Shown here piece by piece: positions 594-10,127 of a stretch of 36,317 bases of DNA; within the stretch, counting starts at the first letter, position 1, and every line of letters starts with the position of its first letter. Below the pieces are notes generated by a model. It had not been told where the DNA came from, did not search any database, and saw nothing but the letters and a program-made list of their open reading frames with translations. Both the position numbers and the translations under genes were made by a program. Origin of the DNA: Alphaproteobacteria bacterium (GTDB lineage: Bacteria > Pseudomonadota > Alphaproteobacteria > Bin95); contig JAJECZ010000172.1 in assembly GCA_022821735.1 (NCBI GenBank), positions 1-36,317 on the forward strand, in the 5' to 3' direction.

Positions 594-1381
594 CCGCCGG
601 CAAGGCGCGCGGCGAAGTCTGTCATGGCGGGCATGACGGCGTCCCCGGCCTCGCGCCAGGGGGTATGGCCGCAGCCGGGCAGCAGCAGGACTTCCGCCGG
701 GCCGGACACCTGCGCGGCGATGCGGTCCGTCTGGGCGCGCGTGCCGTAGGGGTCGGCCTCGCCCTGGAAGGCCAGCAGCGGCGCCGTTACCGCCGGCAGG
801 TAGTTTTCGATGTTCCAGTCACGGAAGCGCGGGTCGAGCCAAGCCAGGTTCCAGGCGTCGAAGGTCCCGGCGGCGTCCCGGTGCCAGCGGGCGAGCCGCT
901 TGTCGAGGCCGCCCGTGTCGAAGGCGCGCCGGGCCTCGGCGATGGCGCGGATCGAGCAGTCCTCGACGAACACGTGCGGTGCCATGAGGACCAGCCCCGC
1001 CACGGCGTCCGGGAAAGCGCCGGCATGGATGAGCGCGATCGAGCCGCCGTCGCTGTGGCCGACGAGCACCGGCCGCTCGATATCGAGGACGGCAAGGATC
1101 GCCGGCAGGCGCCGCTCGGCCTCGACATGCATGTAATCGAGCGGGAACGCCCCGCCGGCCGGCAGCGACGACCCGCCATAGCCGAGCCGGGAATAGACCA
1201 GCGCACCCGCGCCCGTTGCCGCCGCCGCCTGGTCGGGGAAATCGCGCCAGAGGGCCGCGCAGCCGAGCCCCTCATGCAGGAACACCAGCACCGGCAGGGC
1301 CGGGTCGCCCTCGACCCGGCGGTATTCGATCTCGCCGTCGTCGAGGGCGAGCCGGCCGTGGAGGACCGGCGGACCGTTCAT
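581..1381 (-). CDS. alpha/beta hydrolase (possibly thioesterase-like, box locus)
   Basis: Nucleophile elbow GHSDGG, catalytic His in LPGCGHTPWREAGD. ATGA-type overlap with upstream ligase gene. Confidence 0.85.
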   Translation of the reverse strand: MNGPPVLHGRLALDDGEIEYRRVEGDPALPVLVFLHEGLGCAALWRDFPDQAAAATGAGALVYSRLGYGGSSLPAGGAFPLDYMHVEAERRLPAILAVLDIERPVLVGHSDGGSIALIHAGAFPDAVAGLVLMAPHVFVEDCSIRAIAEARRAFDTGGLDKRLARWHRDAAGTFDAWNLAWLDPRFRDWNIENYLPAVTAPLLAFQGEADPYGTRAQTDRIAAQVSGPAEVLLLPGCGHTPWREAGDAVMPAMTDFAARLAGGYRL

Positions 1382-2871
1382 GCCCTGAGCTTGTACCGCT
1401 GGATCTTGCCCGTCGCCGTCTTGGGCAGCTCGTCCACGAATTCGACCCAGCGCGGATATTTGTAGGCTGCGAGCTGGCCGCGCACGAAGTCCTGGAGCTC
1501 CGCCGCGCCGGCTTCCCTGCCCTCCTGCAGCACCACGAAGGCCTTGGGCTTGACGAGGCCGTCCGGGTCCTCCGCGCCCACCACCGCCGCCTCCAGCACC
1601 GCCTCATGCTTCAGCAGCGCGCCTTCCACCTCGAAGGGCGAGACATAGATGCCGCCGACCTTGAGCATGTCGTCCGCGCGCCCGGCGAAGGCGTAAACGC
1701 CGTTTTCGTCGCGGGTGTATTTGTCGCCGGTGCGCGTCCAGGCGCCGCGGAAGGTCTCGACCGAACGCTCACGACGGTTCCAGTAGAACACCGCGCTGGT
1801 CGGCCCCTTCACCTCCAGCGCGCCGAGCGCCCCCGCTTCTTCGATCACCCGGTCGTCGTCATCGACAAGGCGGACCTCGTAGCCATCCACCGGGCGCCCG
1901 GAAGCTCCCGGCGCGATGTCGCCGACGCGGTTGGTGATGAAGATATGCAGCATCTCGGTCGAGCCGAGGCCGTCCAGAATGTCCACGCCGACGGCCTCCT
2001 GCCAGCGGCGCAGGATTTCCGGTGGCAGCGCCTCGCCGGCCGAGACCGCAAGCCGGAGCGCGTGTTCGCCCGGCCCCGGCGCCTCCCCGCTCGCCAGCAG
2101 CATGGCGAACAGGGTCGGCACGCCGAAGAAGATCGTGGGGCCTGCCTCGCGCAGCAGGCGGCAGATCGGCCCCGGCTCCGGCGGTCCTTCGAGCAGCACA
2201 GCGGTCGCGCCCGCCGCCATCGGGAAAGTCAGGCCGTTGCCGAGCCCGTAGGCGAAGAACAGCTTGGCGGCGGAGAACAACACGTCGTCTTCGCTCACGC
2301 CCAAGGTCGGCCCGGCATAGAGTTCGGCCGTGCGCGCCATGTCGCCGTGCAGGTGCACCGCGCCTTTCGGCTGGCCCGTCGTGCCCGAGGTGTAGAGCCA
2401 GAAGCACATCTCGTCCTCGACGGTTTCGGCGGCGGCGAACACGGGGCTCTCGGGCGCAATCAACGCCGCCAGCCCGCCGCCGTCCGGGATCACGCGGTCA
2501 TGCAGGCCCTCGAAGACCGGGGCGAGGTTCGCCGAGACGAACGCCGCCTGCGCGCGCGCGTCGTGCAGCATGAAGGCGTAGTCGTCGCGGGTGAGCCGCG
2601 TGTTGACCGGCACCGGCACGACGCCGGCCTTGATCGCGCCGAGGAAGCAGGTGTGGAAATCCGCCGTGTCGTTGAGGCAGAGGAGGATGCGCTCCTCGCG
2701 CCGGACGCCGAGCCTGCCGAGCGCATGGGCGAACCGGCTCGTGGCCGCGTCGATGTCGGCATAGCTGTGGGCGCCCCGGCTGTCGATCACGGCCGTCTTC
2801 GCGCCGCGCCCGGCCGCGAGGTTGCGTCCGATCAGGTCCGCCGCCGCGTTGTAACCGGCCATGTCGCTCAC
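1378..2871 (-). CDS. benzoate-CoA ligase family protein (AMP-forming acyl-CoA synthetase)
   Basis: YTSGTTGQPKGAVHLHGD AMP-binding motif, TGDKYTRDENGVYAFAGRADDMLKVGGIYVSPFEVE, C-terminal PKTATGKIQRYKLR. Genomic context boxC/boxB. Probable GTG start. Confidence 0.9.
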   Translation of the reverse strand: MSDMAGYNAAADLIGRNLAAGRGAKTAVIDSRGAHSYADIDAATSRFAHALGRLGVRREERILLCLNDTADFHTCFLGAIKAGVVPVPVNTRLTRDDYAFMLHDARAQAAFVSANLAPVFEGLHDRVIPDGGGLAALIAPESPVFAAAETVEDEMCFWLYTSGTTGQPKGAVHLHGDMARTAELYAGPTLGVSEDDVLFSAAKLFFAYGLGNGLTFPMAAGATAVLLEGPPEPGPICRLLREAGPTIFFGVPTLFAMLLASGEAPGPGEHALRLAVSAGEALPPEILRRWQEAVGVDILDGLGSTEMLHIFITNRVGDIAPGASGRPVDGYEVRLVDDDDRVIEEAGALGALEVKGPTSAVFYWNRRERSVETFRGAWTRTGDKYTRDENGVYAFAGRADDMLKVGGIYVSPFEVEGALLKHEAVLEAAVVGAEDPDGLVKPKAFVVLQEGREAGAAELQDFVRGQLAAYKYPRWVEFVDELPKTATGKIQRYKLRA

Positions 2872-3341
2872 GCCTCCGCCACGGCACTTTCATACCACGC
2901 CCGCGCCCAGTCCGCCGCCTCGTCCTCGGGCAGGACGCCGGAGGACGCATTGTGGCGCATCGGCTCGCCCACGCGCCTTGCGCCGAGCTCGCTCAGGATG
3001 CGGTCGAAGGTCATGCCGCCGCCGCAGAAGGTGCGCGCATAGGTCATGTCGCCGAGCGCAAAGAGGCCGTAGCGGACATGGGCGAGGTCGGGCCGCTCGC
3101 GCTCCAGCGCGTCGGCAAGCGCCTGGCCGTTGTCCGGCACGTCGCCCTGGCCGTAGGTGGAGCTGACGACGAGGTAGAGGCCGGGCACGGCGAAAGCGCC
3201 CGCGTCGAGATCGTCCATCGGCTGGAGTTCCACCTCCACGCCTTCCTCCTCCAGCGCGGCCTGGACTTCCTCGGCGACGAGATCGGCCGTGCCGGTCATC
3301 GTCGCGACATAGATGGTGACAGTGCTGTTCACATCGTGCAT
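2868..3341 (-). CDS. flavodoxin (short-chain, MioC-like)
   Basis: TVTIYVATMTGTADLVAEEV FMN phosphate loop, SSTYGQGDVPDNG, FALGDMTYARTFCGGG. Start taken at MHDVNSTV (AGGA SD-like sequence 6 nt upstream). Overlaps downstream ligase start by 4 nt. Confidence 0.85.
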   Translation of the reverse strand: MHDVNSTVTIYVATMTGTADLVAEEVQAALEEEGVEVELQPMDDLDAGAFAVPGLYLVVSSTYGQGDVPDNGQALADALERERPDLAHVRYGLFALGDMTYARTFCGGGMTFDRILSELGARRVGEPMRHNASSGVLPEDEAADWARAWYESAVAEA

Positions 3342-3354
3342 TATATTTCCTGTA

Positions 3355-4227
3355 ATGGAAGCTGCCAAGGAAAACCTCGCAGCGCCGCTCGGCGCAAGGC
3401 TGCGCACGCTCCGGGCCGCGCGCGGCATGAGCCGGCGCATCCTGGCGCGGGACAGCGCGGTCTCGGAACGCTATCTCGCCGAATTGGAGAACGGAAGGGC
3501 GAACCCCTCCATCGGCGTGCTGGCGCGCATCGGGCTGGCCATCGGGGTGGATATTGCCGAGCTGTTCACGTCCCCTTCCCGCGATGCCGCAACCGCCCTG
3601 CTGGAGCGGCTCGGCCCCGAAGACCGGGCCGCCGCCGGCGCGCTGCTGGAGCGCCATTTCGGCCGCGCCGCCGACAAGGCGGAACGGATCGCGCTGGTCG
3701 GTCTGCGCGGGGCGGGAAAGACCACCCTCGGCCGGCTGCTGGCGGAGCGCCTTGGCTGGCCCTTCGTCGAACTCACGCGCGAGATCGAGCGGGATTACGG
3801 CGCCGATGTCGCGGAAATCCTGGCCCTGGCGGGCCAGCCCGGCCTGCGGCGGCAGGAGTATCGGGCGCTGGGCCGCCTCGTAGAGGAACGGGAGCGCGCG
3901 GTGATCGCCGCGCCCGGCGGCATCGTGGCGGAGGCCGCAAGCCTCGACCTGCTGCTCGCCCGGACGCACACCGTCTGGCTGACCGCTTCGCCCGAGGAGC
4001 ACATGGCGCGCGTCGCCGCCCAGGGCGACCGCCGGCCGATGGCCGACAACCCGGAGGCGATGGCCGACCTGCGCACGATCCTCGCCGCCCGCAGCCCCGA
4101 CTACGCCCGCGCCGACGCCCGCCTCGACACCTCGGGCCGCCCGCTCGAAGACTGCCTCGACGATCTGGAGCGCACCGCGCGCCGCATGGTCCGCGACGGG
4201 TTGCTTCCGGCCGAACAGGAAGTATAG
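3355..4227 (+). CDS. boxR: BoxR/BzdR-type transcriptional regulator (XRE HTH + shikimate kinase-like domain)
   Basis: N-terminal HTH LGARLRTLRAARGMSRRILARDSAVSERYLAELENGRANPSIGVL fused to P-loop domain IALVGLRGAGKTTLGRLLAERLGWPFVEL with shikimate-kinase-like organisation. Divergent from flavodoxin/ligase, upstream of boxC. Confidence 0.9.
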   Translation: MEAAKENLAAPLGARLRTLRAARGMSRRILARDSAVSERYLAELENGRANPSIGVLARIGLAIGVDIAELFTSPSRDAATALLERLGPEDRAAAGALLERHFGRAADKAERIALVGLRGAGKTTLGRLLAERLGWPFVELTREIERDYGADVAEILALAGQPGLRRQEYRALGRLVEERERAVIAAPGGIVAEAASLDLLLARTHTVWLTASPEEHMARVAAQGDRRPMADNPEAMADLRTILAARSPDYARADARLDTSGRPLEDCLDDLERTARRMVRDGLLPAEQEV

Positions 4228-4234
4228 TGCATAT

Positions 4235-5857
4235 ATGATCGACAATGCGCCCATCGCCTACGACCGCGAGCCGGAGAGCTACCGGCACTGGTCGCTCGCC
4301 GTCGAGGGAGCCGTCGCCACGCTCACGCTCAAGGTGGATGAAGACGGGTGTCTCCGTCCGGGCTACCGGCTCAAGCAGAACTCTTACGATCTCGGCGTCG
4401 ATATCGAGCTGAACGACGCGCTCAACCGGCTGCGCTTCGAGCATCCGCGGGTCCGCGCGGTCATCGTCACCAGCGGCATGGAGCGCATGTTCTGCGCCGG
4501 GGCCAACATCTACATGCTCGCCCGGTCGAGCCATGCGGCGAAGGTGAACTTCTGCCGCTTCACCAACGAGACCCGCAACTTCATGGAGGATGCGAGCCGG
4601 CGCTCCGGCATCGCCTTCATCGCCGCCTGCAACGGCACGGCGGCGGGCGGCGGCTACGAACTGGCGCTCGCCTGCGACGAGATCTGGCTGGTGGACGACC
4701 GGTCGAGCGCGGTCAGCCTGCCGGAAGTGCCGCTGCTGGGCGTGCTGCCGGGCACGGGCGGCCTGACGCGCATCACCGACAAGCGCCGCGTGCGCCGGGA
4801 CCTCGCCGACGTGTTCTGCACCGACCCGGACGGCGCGCGGGGACGGCGGGCGCTCGAATGGGGCCTGGTGGACCGCACCGCGCCGCCGCAGCGCTTCGAG
4901 ACCGCGGTCAGGGCGCGCGCGGAGGAACTCGCCGCCCGGCCCGGCCTGCCCGCCGGCGATCCGGTGGTGCTGACGCCTCTGGAACGGCATATCGAAGCGG
5001 ACGGCTACCGCTACCCGAATGTGCGGTTGCGGATCGACGATGCGCGCCGGCTCGCGGAAATCACCGTCTCCGGTCCCGCCGCGCCGGTCGCGGTCGAACG
5101 CGCCGCCGGCTGGTGGCCGCTTGCCGCCGCGCGCGAGCTCGAAGACGCGGTGCTGATGCTGCGCACCAACCATGAGCAGGCCGGCGCCTGGGTGCTGAAG
5201 ACCGAGGGCGACCCGGAGGCGCTGCTGGCGGTGGATGCGCTGCTGGCCGGCGGCGCGGAAACCGACCGGTTCCTCTGCGAGACCGTCGCCTGGTGGCGGC
5301 GCGCGCTCGCCCGGCTGGACGTGACCTCGCGCTCGCTGATCGCGCTCATCGAGCCCGGCTCCTGCTTCGCCGGCCCGCTGCTGGAACTGGCGCTCGCCGC
5401 CGACCGCAGCTTCATGTTCCTCCCCCTCGACGAGCCGGAGACCGCGCCCCGGATCGCGCTCGGCGCGCTGAACCGGGGCGGCCTCGAAACGGCGAACGGG
5501 CGCACCCGCCTCGACTGCCGCTTCGCGGGCGCGGTGCCGGAATTCGAGGCCGCGAGCTTCGGGCCGGAAGAGGCGCTCGCCGCCGGGCTCGTGACCTTCG
5601 CTCCCGACGAACTCGACTGGGAGGACGAGGTGCGCATCGCGCTGGAGGAGCGCGCGGCGCTCTCGCCGGACGCGCTCACCGGCATGGAGGCGAGCCTGCG
5701 CTTCGGCGGCGCGGAGACGCTCGCCACCAAGATCTTCGGCCGGCTCTCCGCTTGGCAGAACTGGATATTCAGCCGCCCCAACGCCGTCGGCGAGGACGGG
5801 GCGCTCAAGCGTTTCGGCACCGGCACGAGGCCGGGCTTCGACTGGAGGCGTGTGTGA
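4235..5857 (+). CDS. boxC: benzoyl-CoA-dihydrodiol lyase BoxC
   Basis: Double crotonase-type sequence, NSYDLGVDIELNDALNRLRFEHPRVRAVIVTSGMERMFCAGANIYML; 540 aa; adjacent to boxB. Confidence 0.93.
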   Translation: MIDNAPIAYDREPESYRHWSLAVEGAVATLTLKVDEDGCLRPGYRLKQNSYDLGVDIELNDALNRLRFEHPRVRAVIVTSGMERMFCAGANIYMLARSSHAAKVNFCRFTNETRNFMEDASRRSGIAFIAACNGTAAGGGYELALACDEIWLVDDRSSAVSLPEVPLLGVLPGTGGLTRITDKRRVRRDLADVFCTDPDGARGRRALEWGLVDRTAPPQRFETAVRARAEELAARPGLPAGDPVVLTPLERHIEADGYRYPNVRLRIDDARRLAEITVSGPAAPVAVERAAGWWPLAAARELEDAVLMLRTNHEQAGAWVLKTEGDPEALLAVDALLAGGAETDRFLCETVAWWRRALARLDVTSRSLIALIEPGSCFAGPLLELALAADRSFMFLPLDEPETAPRIALGALNRGGLETANGRTRLDCRFAGAVPEFEAASFGPEEALAAGLVTFAPDELDWEDEVRIALEERAALSPDALTGMEASLRFGGAETLATKIFGRLSAWQNWIFSRPNAVGEDGALKRFGTGTRPGFDWRRV

Positions 5858-7281
5858 TGGCTGTCGATTACCGGGGGCGTATCCCCAACAATATCGATCT
5901 CTCCGCCGACCGGCGGCTGCAGCGCGCGCTGGAGCACTGGCAGCCCCGCTTCCTGAACTGGTGGAGCGAGCTCGGGCCCGAGGGCTTCCAGGCGGCGGAC
6001 GTCTATCTGCGCACCGCCACGGCGGTCGACGCCAGGGGCTGGGCCAGCTTCGGCTATGTGCGGATGCCGGAATACCGCTGGGGCATCTTCCTAGCCGAGC
6101 CGGAGCAGGACCGCACCATCGGCTTCGGCGACGAGATGGGCAAGCCGGTCTGGCCCGAGGTTCCGGGAGAGCACCGGGCCGCGCTCCGCCGCCTGATCGT
6201 GACGCAAGGCGACACCGAGCCCGCCTCCGTCGAGCAGCAGCGCCGCCTCGGCCACAGCTGCCCCTCGCTCTACGACCTGCGCAACCTCTTCCAGGTCAAT
6301 GTCGAGGAAGGCCGCCACCTCTGGGCGATGGTCTATCTGCTGCACGCCCATTTCGGCCGCGACGGGCGCGAGGAGGCCGAGGAGCTGCTCTACCGCCACT
6401 CCGGCGACCCGGACAATCCGCGCATCCTGACCACCTTCAACGAGCCGATAGACGACTGGCTCTCCTTCTTCATGTTCACCTATTTCACCGACCGGGACGG
6501 CAAGTACCAGCTGAAGTCCTTCGCCGAGTCGGCCTTCGACCCGCTGGCCCGCACCTGCTCCTTCATGCTGACCGAGGAAGCCCACCACATGTTCGTCGGC
6601 GAGACCGGCATCGGGCGGATCGTCCGGCGCACGCTGGAGGTGATGCAGGCGCTCGGCACCGACGATCCCGACGCGGTGCGCGCCCAGGGCGCCATCGACC
6701 TGCCGACGCTCCAGCGCTACATCAATTTCTGGTTTTCCTCCTCGCTCGACCTGTTCGGCTCCGAGACCTCGTCCAACGCTGCCACCTATTTCGCCGCGGG
6801 CCTCAAGGGCCGGCCAGACGAAGCCAGTTTCGAGGACCATGTGTGCCTCGATACCGCCGAGCGCATCGCCGTCCCCGGTGAAGCGGGCGGCGTCGCCGAG
6901 GAGGAGGTGCCGACGCGCAACGCGATGAACGAGATCACGCGCAGCCTCTATGTGAAGGACTGCGCCATCGGCATGACCCGCTGGAACCGGACGATAAAGC
7001 GCGCCGGCTTCGACGCCGAACTCTTCCTGCCGTCGACGCGCTTCCGCCGCACCATCGGCCGCTGGGCCGGGGCCTCCGTCGCCCCCGACGGCACGCCGAT
7101 GGCGGACGACCTCTACCGCAAGCGCCTGCCCGGCTGGCTGCCGACGGAGGAGGACAAGGCCTATGTCCGCTCGCTGATGCGCGCCGTTACCGAGCCCGGC
7201 AGGATGGCGGGCTGGATCGCCCCGCCCGCGCGCGGCATCGACGGCAAGCCGGTCGATTACGAATATGTGAAGCTGCATTGA
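5857..7281 (+). CDS. boxB: benzoyl-CoA 2,3-epoxidase subunit BoxB
   Basis: Start MAVDYRGRIPNNIDLSADRRLQRALEHWQPRFLNWWSELGPEGFQ; diiron ligand region MLTEEAHHMFVGETGIGRIV; TGATG overlap with boxC. Confidence 0.93.
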   Translation: MAVDYRGRIPNNIDLSADRRLQRALEHWQPRFLNWWSELGPEGFQAADVYLRTATAVDARGWASFGYVRMPEYRWGIFLAEPEQDRTIGFGDEMGKPVWPEVPGEHRAALRRLIVTQGDTEPASVEQQRRLGHSCPSLYDLRNLFQVNVEEGRHLWAMVYLLHAHFGRDGREEAEELLYRHSGDPDNPRILTTFNEPIDDWLSFFMFTYFTDRDGKYQLKSFAESAFDPLARTCSFMLTEEAHHMFVGETGIGRIVRRTLEVMQALGTDDPDAVRAQGAIDLPTLQRYINFWFSSSLDLFGSETSSNAATYFAAGLKGRPDEASFEDHVCLDTAERIAVPGEAGGVAEEEVPTRNAMNEITRSLYVKDCAIGMTRWNRTIKRAGFDAELFLPSTRFRRTIGRWAGASVAPDGTPMADDLYRKRLPGWLPTEEDKAYVRSLMRAVTEPGRMAGWIAPPARGIDGKPVDYEYVKLH

Positions 7282-8255
7282 CGGCGCGTTTCGCCATCGC
7301 CGGGTCCGGCCCGGCGGGCTGCTACCTGGCGGACGCGCTCGCCCGGGCTGCGCCCGGCGCCGTCATCGACGTGTTCGAGCGGCTGGATGAGCCCTTCGGC
7401 CTGGTGCGCTTCGGCGTGGCCCCGGACCATGAGGCGACCCGCGCCATTACCCGCGTGCTGCGCCGGCCGTTCGACAAGGGCGCGGCCCGTCTCCATCTCG
7501 GCGTCGAGGTCGGCCGCGACTTAAGCCTCACCTCCCTCCGCCGCGACTATGACGCGGTGGCGCTGGCGACAGGCGCGCCGGTGGACCGCAGGCTGGGCGT
7601 CCCCGGCGAGGAACTGGCCGAACCGTCCGGCCGCTTCATCCGCTGGATCAACGGCCACCCCGAAGCCGCCCCGCCGGCCCGTCTCGCCGGCGCGCGGCGC
7701 GCGGTCGTCATCGGCGCCGGCAACGTGGCGCTCGACGCCGTCCGCCTGCTGGCGAAGCACCGCGAGATCGGCTGCCTGAACCCGCTGGCGCTGGAGCGCA
7801 TCGACCTGCTGGTCCGCGGCGGCCCGGAAGACGTGCGGTTCACGCCGTCCGAACTCGTCGAAATCGGCGACCTCGCGGCGGCATGGCCCGACCTTGACGC
7901 CTTCGACGACGCGACCGGCGAGGCGGCGGTCCTGCTGAAGGAGTTTGCAGCCCGCCCGCCGAGACAGGGCATCCCGATCCGCTTCCATTTCCGCACGCAG
8001 GCGACCGCCTTCCTCGGCGCGGGCCGGCTGGAAGCGGTCGAAACGGACCGCGGCGCGCTCCCGGCCGACCTCGCCGTCACCTGCATCGGCTACGAAAAGG
8101 CCCCCGTGGACGGCATCCGCCCCACCGGCCCCGAAATCGAACCCGGCCTTTACGCCGCCGGCTGGGCCGCCCGCGGCCCAAGCGGCACGATCCCGACGAA
8201 CCGCACGGAGGCCCGCGCCCTCGCGCAGCGGATGATTGCCCCCCTCAGGCAGTGA
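7278..8255 (+). CDS. short FAD-dependent oxidoreductase of ferredoxin/adrenodoxin reductase (FprA-like) type
   Basis: TTG start overlapping the boxB stop. FAIAGSGPAGCYLADAL FAD Rossmann motif, DVFERLDEPFGLVRFGVAPDHEATRAI, VVIGAGNVALDAVRLLAK NAD(P)H motif, GLYAAGWAARGPSGTIPTNRTEA. 325 aa, shorter than typical FprA. Confidence 0.85.
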   Translation: MTARFAIAGSGPAGCYLADALARAAPGAVIDVFERLDEPFGLVRFGVAPDHEATRAITRVLRRPFDKGAARLHLGVEVGRDLSLTSLRRDYDAVALATGAPVDRRLGVPGEELAEPSGRFIRWINGHPEAAPPARLAGARRAVVIGAGNVALDAVRLLAKHREIGCLNPLALERIDLLVRGGPEDVRFTPSELVEIGDLAAAWPDLDAFDDATGEAAVLLKEFAARPPRQGIPIRFHFRTQATAFLGAGRLEAVETDRGALPADLAVTCIGYEKAPVDGIRPTGPEIEPGLYAAGWAARGPSGTIPTNRTEARALAQRMIAPLRQ

Positions 8256-8766
8256 GACGGCCTACGATCTCCTCGACCGCTGCGTCGGCCAACGCCTGGA
8301 TTTCGGCATCGGTGCGGTCCTGGATCGGGTGGGGGACGAAAATCATGGGCGGCTCGTAGCCGAGCGCGGCGGACTGCGCCTGCCACGCCTCCACGAACTC
8401 CGTGGTCGCCACGCCCACGCCGGGGACGCCGCGGGCTTCGAGGTCTGCGATATCATGCGTACAGCACGATGTGCAGGAGCCTCAGTCGGCCAGCCCTTCG
8501 ACGACGAGGGCGGCCTCCGACGCGATCTGCTGCTTGACGGCGACCGGGGCGATGCGCGCGAAGGTCGGCTTCATGTAGCGCTTCACTTCAATGCCCCGCT
8601 CGTCCAGGCGCATATGCAGACGGTCCAGGAAGATGTCGCCGCGCGCCTTGGAAATGTCGAGCAGGGCCACGGTCCTGCCGTCCAGCGAGGCCGGCCGGGC
8701 GAGCGGCTCGCGCCGCGCCGGCTCCACTTCGCCGGTCGGATCGACCAGCACCGGTGTGTTCCTCAC
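8245..8766 (-). CDS. UGSC-motif selenoprotein (173 aa; Sec at codon 95 encoded by in-frame TGA 8482-8484)
   Basis: GTG start at 8764-8766 with perfect AAGGAGG SD (8774-8780), 94 codons ending VVEGLAD, then TGA, then in-frame GSCTSCCTHDIADLEARGVPGVGVATTEFVEAWQAQSAALGYEPPMIFVPHPIQDRTDAEIQALADAAVEEIVGRLTA-stop (tca 8245-8247 on +). SECIS-like hairpin follows the TGA. The ORF track lists only the N-terminal part (8482-8766). Confidence 0.85.
8452..8470 (-). promoter_or_regulatory. bacterial SECIS-like stem-loop
   Basis: On the minus-strand RNA: AUCGUGC-UGUAC-GCAUGAU, 7 bp stem (one G-U) and 5-nt loop containing GU. Loop begins 18 nt after the UGA. Outer helices CUGC/GCAG (8473-8476 with 8445-8448) and GAGG/CCUC (8480-8483 with 8440-8443) can extend it. 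Confidence 0.75.
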
Positions 8767-10127
8767 GTTCCTACCTCCTTCGTTACGGGAATGCTGCCGA
8801 CCGGGCCGGTGGCGGCCCAGCCGGGCAGAATGGCGGAGAACATGCCCGCCCCGCCGCCGGCGCGCACGATCAGCAGGCCGCCCTCGCGCAGCTTGGGTGT
8901 CTCGTGGCCGGGTTCGTCGAGTGCGGTGCGGAGTGCGGCTTCCAGGTCCTCGCGCGACCAGCCGCCGTCCCGGAACACGCGGTCATGCTCCGGCGACACG
9001 ACGACCACGGCGTCGATATTGCGCCGGTTGCGGTTCTCGAGGCCCCGGAACACGTCCGCGAAGGTTTCCACAAGGGCCTCGGGCGTGCGGGAATCCTGGT
9101 CCACCACGCCCATCACGCCGTAGCCGGCAAACAGCGTGACCGCCGAGGCCCCTTTGCCCGCGCCCCGGCTCTCGGACAGCGGCGGCCAGGCGGAGCCCTC
9201 CTCGTCCTCAGGGAAGCAGAAGGTGTATTTGCCGGGATTGCCGAGCGCGGCCCGGTCCACGCCCTGCGGCTTGCCGCCGCCGACATTGCGCACCACCAGC
9301 TGCAGCGCGCGGCCGACGGTCGCGTTGGCGCGGTTGCCCTGCCCGAGGACGTTGCCCTTCGCGTTCATGCCGACGGCGCGGCGCACCGGGCCGTTCACGA
9401 TGACGATGGGGCCGATATAGTAGGTCGTCGCGAGCACCCCGTGCATGCAGAAGGCATCGTCCAGCGCCGCCTCGACCGCCGCCAGCACGACGGGCAGGTA
9501 TTCGGGCTTGCAGCCCGCCATCACGGCGTTGACCGCCACCTTCTCGACCGTGCAGGGCTGGAGGTTCGGCGGCGCGAGGCCCAGCACTTCGCCGGGATCG
9601 CGGGTAGTGCCGTCCAGCATCGCCAGCACGCGCGCCTCGGTCGGCGGCACGACTGGCAGCCCGTCCGACCAGCCGCGGTCGTAAGCCGCCTCGACCTCGT
9701 CTTCCAGCGGCGCCAGCGGCACCCGGCGGGACTTGAGATGCGCGGAGCCGAAACGCGCTGCAAGCGCCTCCGGCATTCCGGGCTCGACGTTCTTCGCCCC
9801 GCAGCCCGGCCGGAAGGGCGGCAGGCCGGCGCCGAGGCCTTCGAGGCCGGTCAGGCGCTCCCACTCCGCGCGGTCCCAGCCCCAGGTGCGCCCCGTCTCC
9901 TCGCCGTCCTCGCGCCGGATCAGGGTCGGCACGATCTCGACGCCGAGCCGGAAGGACCGCTCCAGCTCCTCGTCGAGCGCGCCGGACACGCTTTCCGGGA
10001 AGGCGGGGTCGTCCTGGGTCCATACGTCGAGCGCGAGCCCGGAGGCCGCAAGCTCGGCATAGACCGGCTCAAGCAGGGTGCAGGTCGGGCAGTCGCGCTT
10101 CACGACCAGGGTGAACTGTTTCGTCAT
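8763..10127 (-). CDS. thioredoxin-like domain fused to a conserved uncharacterised domain; translationally coupled to the UGSC selenoprotein
   Basis: N-terminal TLVVKRDCPTCTLLEPVYAEL (CxxC) ... GVEIVPTLI cis-Pro-like motif; C-terminal ~320 aa region DRGWSDGLPVVPPTEARV...LQPCTVEKVAVNAVMAGCKPEYLPVVLAAV... GTGA overlap with downstream gene. Confidence 0.75.
   Translation of the reverse strand: MTKQFTLVVKRDCPTCTLLEPVYAELAASGLALDVWTQDDPAFPESVSGALDEELERSFRLGVEIVPTLIRREDGEETGRTWGWDRAEWERLTGLEGLGAGLPPFRPGCGAKNVEPGMPEALAARFGSAHLKSRRVPLAPLEDEVEAAYDRGWSDGLPVVPPTEARVLAMLDGTTRDPGEVLGLAPPNLQPCTVEKVAVNAVMAGCKPEYLPVVLAAVEAALDDAFCMHGVLATTYYIGPIVIVNGPVRRAVGMNAKGNVLGQGNRANATVGRALQLVVRNVGGGKPQGVDRAALGNPGKYTFCFPEDEEGSAWPPLSESRGAGKGASAVTLFAGYGVMGVVDQDSRTPEALVETFADVFRGLENRNRRNIDAVVVVSPEHDRVFRDGGWSREDLEAALRTALDEPGHETPKLREGGLLIVRAGGGAGMFSAILPGWAATGPVGSIPVTKEVGT

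Follow-up and report, generated by a model that had tools for sequence, protein, structure and literature searches.

A UGSC-family selenoprotein gene and its uncharacterised partner in an alphaproteobacterial contig

An open reading frame of 94 codons in the 36,317-nt stretch of alphaproteobacterial DNA analysed here (the window) ends at a TGA, and the same frame runs on beyond it. The locus thus raises the question of whether this TGA is a stop or a selenocysteine (Sec) codon within a single gene and, in the latter case, what the encoded protein might do.

The UGSC gene and its in-frame UGA

The gene comprises the following features:

8245 to 8766, minus strand: selenoprotein gene of the UGSC family, with 173 codons (UGA-95 read as Sec) plus stop (matches to NF041046 and PF24696; pN/pS after the UGA)
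8482 to 8484, minus strand: in-frame UGA (Sec95) of the U-G-S-C motif, with a Cys codon at this place in 28 homologous loci
8439 to 8484, minus strand: SECIS-type stem-loop starting at the UGA, with a core hairpin at about 8452-8470 and the apical loop UGUAC
8774 to 8780, minus strand: Shine-Dalgarno sequence AAGGAGG, within the end of the partner gene

The initial annotation proposed one selenoprotein gene split by the ORF caller, and its details are borne out by the sequence. The 94-aa ORF at 8482-8766 (minus strand) begins with GTG, 7 nt downstream of a perfect AAGGAGG. Past the TGA at 8482-8484, the frame continues for 78 more codons to a TGA stop at 8245-8247, and the peptide is identical to the one quoted in that annotation. 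The 3' end lies, as described, inside a convergent gene, the Pyr_redox_2 gene at 7278-8255, with an overlap of approximately 11 nt. The GTG start and the stop codon of the partner gene upstream (8763-10127) overlap in four nucleotides, GTGA; translation of the two genes is therefore probably coupled. As judged from the family matches given below, the open stretch across the TGA is far beyond chance.

Membership in the UGSC family, which the initial annotation had tentatively suggested, was established by two curated models. The 173-aa read-through product matches NF041046 (UGSC_fam) with 141.4 bits (cut-off 125, E=2.1e-41) and PF24696 with 136 bits (cut-off 25, E=1.9e-39), the latter over residues 7-172, that is, nearly the whole length. 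A UGSC-containing protein was described in the selenoproteome of the Global Ocean Sampling (GOS) expedition in 2008, where UGSC was among the most abundant selenoprotein families and particularly common in non-marine samples (PMC2398784). Given these matches to a family named earlier, the window gene is a further member of a described family. The statement that the family has no established function also stands: UGSC proteins have been known since 2008, a review of 2026 enters the family without a function (PMC13188914), and no biochemistry for any member was present in the literature found.

Homologues spanning the TGA, with U or C at residue 95, do exist. The TGA is kept in all four same-genus orthologues compared. 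Approximately 60 UGSC hits were obtained in 14 genomes of the same bacterial family, and each contains exactly one in-frame TGA, except for a 46-residue fragment at a contig edge. This conservation excludes an assembly error, which had been considered a possible explanation of the TGA. A motif scan for the Cys version revealed 28 further loci in Pseudomonadota, Bacteroidota, and Actinomycetota; since the scan demanded Cys at the motif, the ratio of Sec to Cys forms cannot be read from this count. The first position of the [UC]-G-S-C motif is an invariant Sec/Cys column in 42 aligned homologues, and UxxC occurs in every aligned UGSC protein, while C102, and sometimes also C101, varies. The tree places the 22 Cys proteins from Pseudomonadota and Bacteroidota in a single clade within the Sec proteins, which makes one replacement of Sec by Cys likely there. 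Among five same-genus orthologues, pN/pS was 0.171 before the UGA versus 0.041 after it, which indicates that purifying selection is stronger after the UGA than before.

The RNA directly downstream of the UGA displays a further signature. The core hairpin occupies positions 15-33 after the UGA, and its loop, UGUAC in the window gene, is built around A-G-U in others. Mean minimum free energy of this hairpin was -9.7 kcal/mol in 34 distinct Sec genes versus -3.7 kcal/mol in 27 Cys homologues. The serine at +7 is encoded by AGT in 18 of 18 Sec genes and in none of 26 Cys homologues; the histidine at +9 is encoded by CAT in all 28 Sec genes and in 11 of 24 Cys homologues. The codons of loop and stem are thus fixed among synonyms in Sec genes and not in Cys homologues, which indicates a SECIS-type element at this place. 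Base-pair covariation in the hairpin is modest, with compensatory changes present but few, and one slid control had a higher covariation score with far fewer paired cells. An Rfam search for SECIS gave no match.

The source genome is a draft, 95% complete and divided into 554 contigs. Of the Sec machinery for which the initial annotation proposed a search, tRNA-Sec (selC) with anticodon TCA (UCA) and a selA truncated by a contig edge were identified. The genes selB and selD were not found in this draft assembly, yet each is present in 12 of 13 relatives, which makes assembly gaps the simplest explanation. Loss of the Sec pathway is very unlikely, because the genome contains at least two further UGSC genes (loci L002 and L003) as well as a PrdB-like selenoprotein (locus L117). 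UGSC genes are uncommon in the phylum, with 5 positive genomes among 398 sampled (the source genome included), but were detected in 14 of 14 genomes of the same bacterial family, at two to six matches per genome. The selD genes of relatives (L056-L059) lie within open frames 715-765 aa long, in agreement with the Ndh-SelD fusion of the GOS paper (PMC2398784). In one genome (G008), selD is convergent with a UGSC gene.

The reading of the TGA as a genuine stop or nonsense mutation with an untranslated downstream part, to which the absence of selB and selD from the assembly could lend weight, is practically negligible in view of the TGA in all same-genus orthologues, the Cys homologues, and the full-length family match, and is refuted by the selection acting after the UGA. 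The curated models, Cys homologues, selection, SECIS-type hairpin, and Sec machinery agree on one selenoprotein gene. We conclude from these comparisons that positions 8245-8766 (minus strand) encode a predicted 173-aa UGSC selenoprotein with Sec at codon 95. Gene callers easily split genes of this type at the UGA.

The partner protein and genomic neighbourhoods

The gene just upstream encodes a protein with these features:

8763 to 10127, minus strand: partner gene, 454 aa, with an N-terminal thioredoxin-like domain and a conserved core; 4-nt overlap with the UGSC gene
10080 to 10091, minus strand: C-P-T-C redox motif of the partner's thioredoxin-like domain (C-x-T-C in alignment A4)
8766 to 9740, minus strand: partner core domain, RGWSDGLPVVPPT ... 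NAVMAGCKPEY ... KYTFCF ... AGGGAG (alignment A4, natural UGSC fusions)

UGSC is nearly always located beside, or fused to, this one uncharacterised partner protein, which the initial annotation had overlooked. A homologue of the partner core adjoins UGSC in 28 of 28 Cys loci. The same holds for the Sec loci examined, except for a single group of orthologues from three sister-genus genomes, where both genes are present but unlinked and a full-length partner is located elsewhere without a UGSC neighbour. Most often the partner is found 8-64 nt upstream of UGSC in the same orientation; in some loci it is 0.5-0.9 kb away, upstream or downstream, and in others the two are fused. Natural fusions were observed in at least two distinct subfamilies. 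The 2008 paper had already described UGSC fused to another domain, termed Unknown_1 (PMC2398784). That UGSC works together with the protein encoded at 8763-10127 is strongly supported.

Assignment of the partner to a known family was rejected: the core has no Pfam or NCBIfam model, the thioredoxin-like N-terminus alone gives a weak match, and comparison of the core with solved structures (PDB) revealed no fold match at E<0.001. Partners in alignment A4 with a thioredoxin-like domain keep the C-x-T-C motif, except one cut at a contig edge. Since some partners have no such domain, it cannot be the sole electron donor.

Several variants of this arrangement were observed. Loci L088-L096 (e.g., L088:1547-3280) contain a second fused UGSC-partner subfamily from the same bacterial family, with a Cys directly before Sec (C-U-G-S-C); its members are without the otherwise invariant Asp94 and Lys40 and score far below the UGSC cut-off. 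Two tandem partner genes per UGSC gene were present in L137, L140, and L144, next to pyridine nucleotide oxidoreductase or monooxygenase-like genes. In L003, an apparent small toxin-antitoxin pair (PIN toxin and ribbon-helix-helix antitoxin, identified by eye, at about 540-1300) is located between the third UGSC gene and its partner.

Within the window, the operon of the UGSC-partner pair contains no gene for a substrate-specific enzyme. In further genomes from the family and its class, paralogues are accompanied by genes for an amidohydrolase and CobW, molybdopterin oxidoreductase, hydantoinase B, enolase-superfamily proteins, HpcH aldolase, or pyridine nucleotide oxidoreductase (Pyr_redox). 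These varied operon neighbours suggest different substrates for the paralogues. No single recurrent neighbour names a substrate; FCD/GntR regulators, TctC, and Pyr_redox recur weakly. A 775-aa molybdopterin oxidoreductase (Pfam) is encoded at L136:1655-3982 and a 771-aa gene occupies the same place at L143:1610-3925; each overlaps or abuts the partner gene, which suggests that molybdopterin oxidoreductase and partner belong to one operon.

The window itself carries, at 1378-7281, genes of the aerobic benzoyl-CoA (box) pathway, namely benzoate-CoA ligase, a BoxR-like regulator, BoxC (TIGR03222), and BoxB (TIGR03225). They adjoin the Pyr_redox_2 gene, which is convergent with the UGSC gene. Other genes of the window code for PEP carboxykinase, a response regulator and histidine kinase, HPr kinase, RapZ, and S-adenosylhomocysteine hydrolase, in a gene order which presumably resembles the alphaproteobacterial one.

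Predicted fold and possible remote kinship to PrdB and GrdB

The AlphaFold2 model of UGSC (mean pLDDT 92.6) displays alternating strands and helices and places Sec where the third strand ends and the third long helix begins. A Foldseek search with this model returned flavodoxins and related alpha/beta folds and no thioredoxins; the fold is accordingly predicted to be flavodoxin-like alpha/beta. A thioredoxin-like fold had once been suggested in the 2008 paper (PMC2398784); the model and its Foldseek matches do not support it. The natural fusion in L002 (548 aa) was modelled with a pTM of 0.87, a value resting on few fused sequences. Sequence hits of UGSC to histidinol dehydrogenase and other PDB entries were chance matches (E>0.4).

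The same genomes carry PrdB-like selenoproteins (VPVUPNCTRAV...). Comparison of UGSC with a PrdB-like profile by hhalign gave a remote match with Sec aligned on Sec (P=5.4e-5, hhalign probability about 66-69%). The score was 40.4, whereas 150 column shuffles reached 28.0 at most and the reversed control 13.1; masking the Sec and Cys columns still left a score of 35.8. One PrdB-like selenoprotein of a relative matches NF041046 over the Sec region (E=0.004). Neither the window protein nor any of 18 UGSC members gave a hit above the cut-off of PF07355/TIGR04483. Taken at the level of profiles, there is moderate evidence that UGSC and the Sec domain of PrdB/GrdB may be of common descent. The partner was also compared with the PrdB-like profile, and kinship was rejected (hhalign probability 1.1%). 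A role of its conserved Cys206 as pyruvoyl precursor is unlikely, this residue being Ala in a fusion.

The PrdB-like selenoprotein of the source genome (L117:1195-2478, contig C206) has a UPNC motif and a C-terminal extension of approximately 200 residues. Its relatives are present in most related genomes, and gene callers would cut them at the UGA as well.

A two-part reductase as the proposed function

In PrdB and GrdB, Sec attacks the substrate, and the U-x-x-C motif is thought to cycle through a selenylsulfide. We consider UGSC to be probably the Sec subunit of a two-part reductase formed with the upstream partner, with paralogues for different substrates. Such a two-subunit reductase, including complex formation, chemistry, substrate, and electron path, is what we infer from the chemistry of PrdB/GrdB, the U-x-x-C and C-x-T-C motifs, and the partner association. 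UGSC and partner would form one enzyme, in which the alpha/beta domain of UGSC would place the catalytic selenolate at the beginning of the helix that follows strand three. A small polar substrate may be accommodated in a pocket made up of the conserved residues Lys40, Lys66, Asp94, Asp105, and His146; the Sec95 selenolate would attack this substrate, as in PrdB and GrdB. Cys98, perhaps Cys101, would then resolve the intermediate to give a Sec-Cys selenylsulfide, and the CPTC thioredoxin-like domain of the partner would re-reduce it. The partner core may contribute to substrate binding or seal the active site. Paralogues, which are found in different catabolic operons, probably differ in their substrates.

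A narrower version of the two-part reductase, in which Sec attacks carbon and a carbon-heteroatom bond (C-N, C-O, C-S, or C-halogen) is cleaved reductively, appears possible but on balance doubtful. It would agree with the profile link to PrdB/GrdB-like selenoproteins and with the paralogue operons that contain amidohydrolase, hydantoinase B, HpcH aldolase, and enolase-superfamily genes. For GrdB homologues, cleavage of the C-F bond of monofluoroacetate via Sec attack has been proposed (PMC10838667), which supports this reading. No pyruvoyl subunit (GrdE/PrdA) was identified, however: the partner gave no match to the PrdB-like profile, and in a fusion its conserved Cys206 is replaced by Ala.

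We regard it as unlikely that UGSC serves in stress defence as a thiol-dependent peroxidase or disulfide reductase, the role assumed for many UxxC selenoproteins. The U-x-x-C motif and the partner's thioredoxin-like domain would suit such a function, and the GOS paper places UGSC among the redox families (PMC2398784); however, the predicted fold of UGSC is not thioredoxin-like and, unlike general peroxidases, several paralogues are located in catabolic operons and have a near-obligate partner. A carrier or detoxification protein that binds a metal, a metalloid, or selenium via Sec and Cys is very improbable: the Sec/Cys cluster U-G-S-C-T-S-C-C and the CobW metallochaperone beside one paralogue are matched against a C102, and sometimes a C101, that is not conserved and against the lack of recurring metal transport or resistance genes near the loci.

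The two-part reductase may be part of a wider picture, which we offer tentatively, at somewhat less than an even chance. UGSC and its partner would represent a class of reductive enzymes, Sec-dependent and built from two subunits, that has so far escaped recognition, occurs also in Cys form in several bacteria, and derives distantly from the Sec domain of D-proline/glycine reductase without the pyruvoyl subunit. Paralogues of this class would serve different catabolic operons, and many members would have a built-in thioredoxin-like electron donor.

The near-constant partner makes the job of UGSC testable. The pairing, with many partners having a thioredoxin-like domain of their own, shows what to co-express in order to find an activity, and the Cys forms in culturable Methylobacterium, Bradyrhizobium, and Elioraea can be used with no need for selenoprotein production.

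Compared to the described UGSC family (NF041046/PF24696), the window gene is the same in its full-length match, U-G-S-C motif, and in-frame UGA, and nothing in the gene itself is different. What is added to the knowledge of the family is the near-obligate partner with a thioredoxin-like domain, the predicted flavodoxin-like fold, and the possible remote PrdB/GrdB kinship. Statements of the partner association, this fold, or the PrdB/GrdB profile link were not met in the literature found on UGSC. With the thioredoxin-fold selenoproteins, UGSC shares the U-x-x-C redox motif; it differs in its predicted flavodoxin-like fold, the thioredoxin-like domain being present in the partner only. With PrdB of D-proline reductase and GrdB (selenoprotein B; TIGR04483, PF07355), it appears to share a Sec at a strand end in U-x-x-C, the helix that follows, and a G-[IV]-P strand. 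It differs from them in that its partner is no recognised pyruvoyl subunit and in that it stands beside separate PrdB-like selenoproteins in the same genome.
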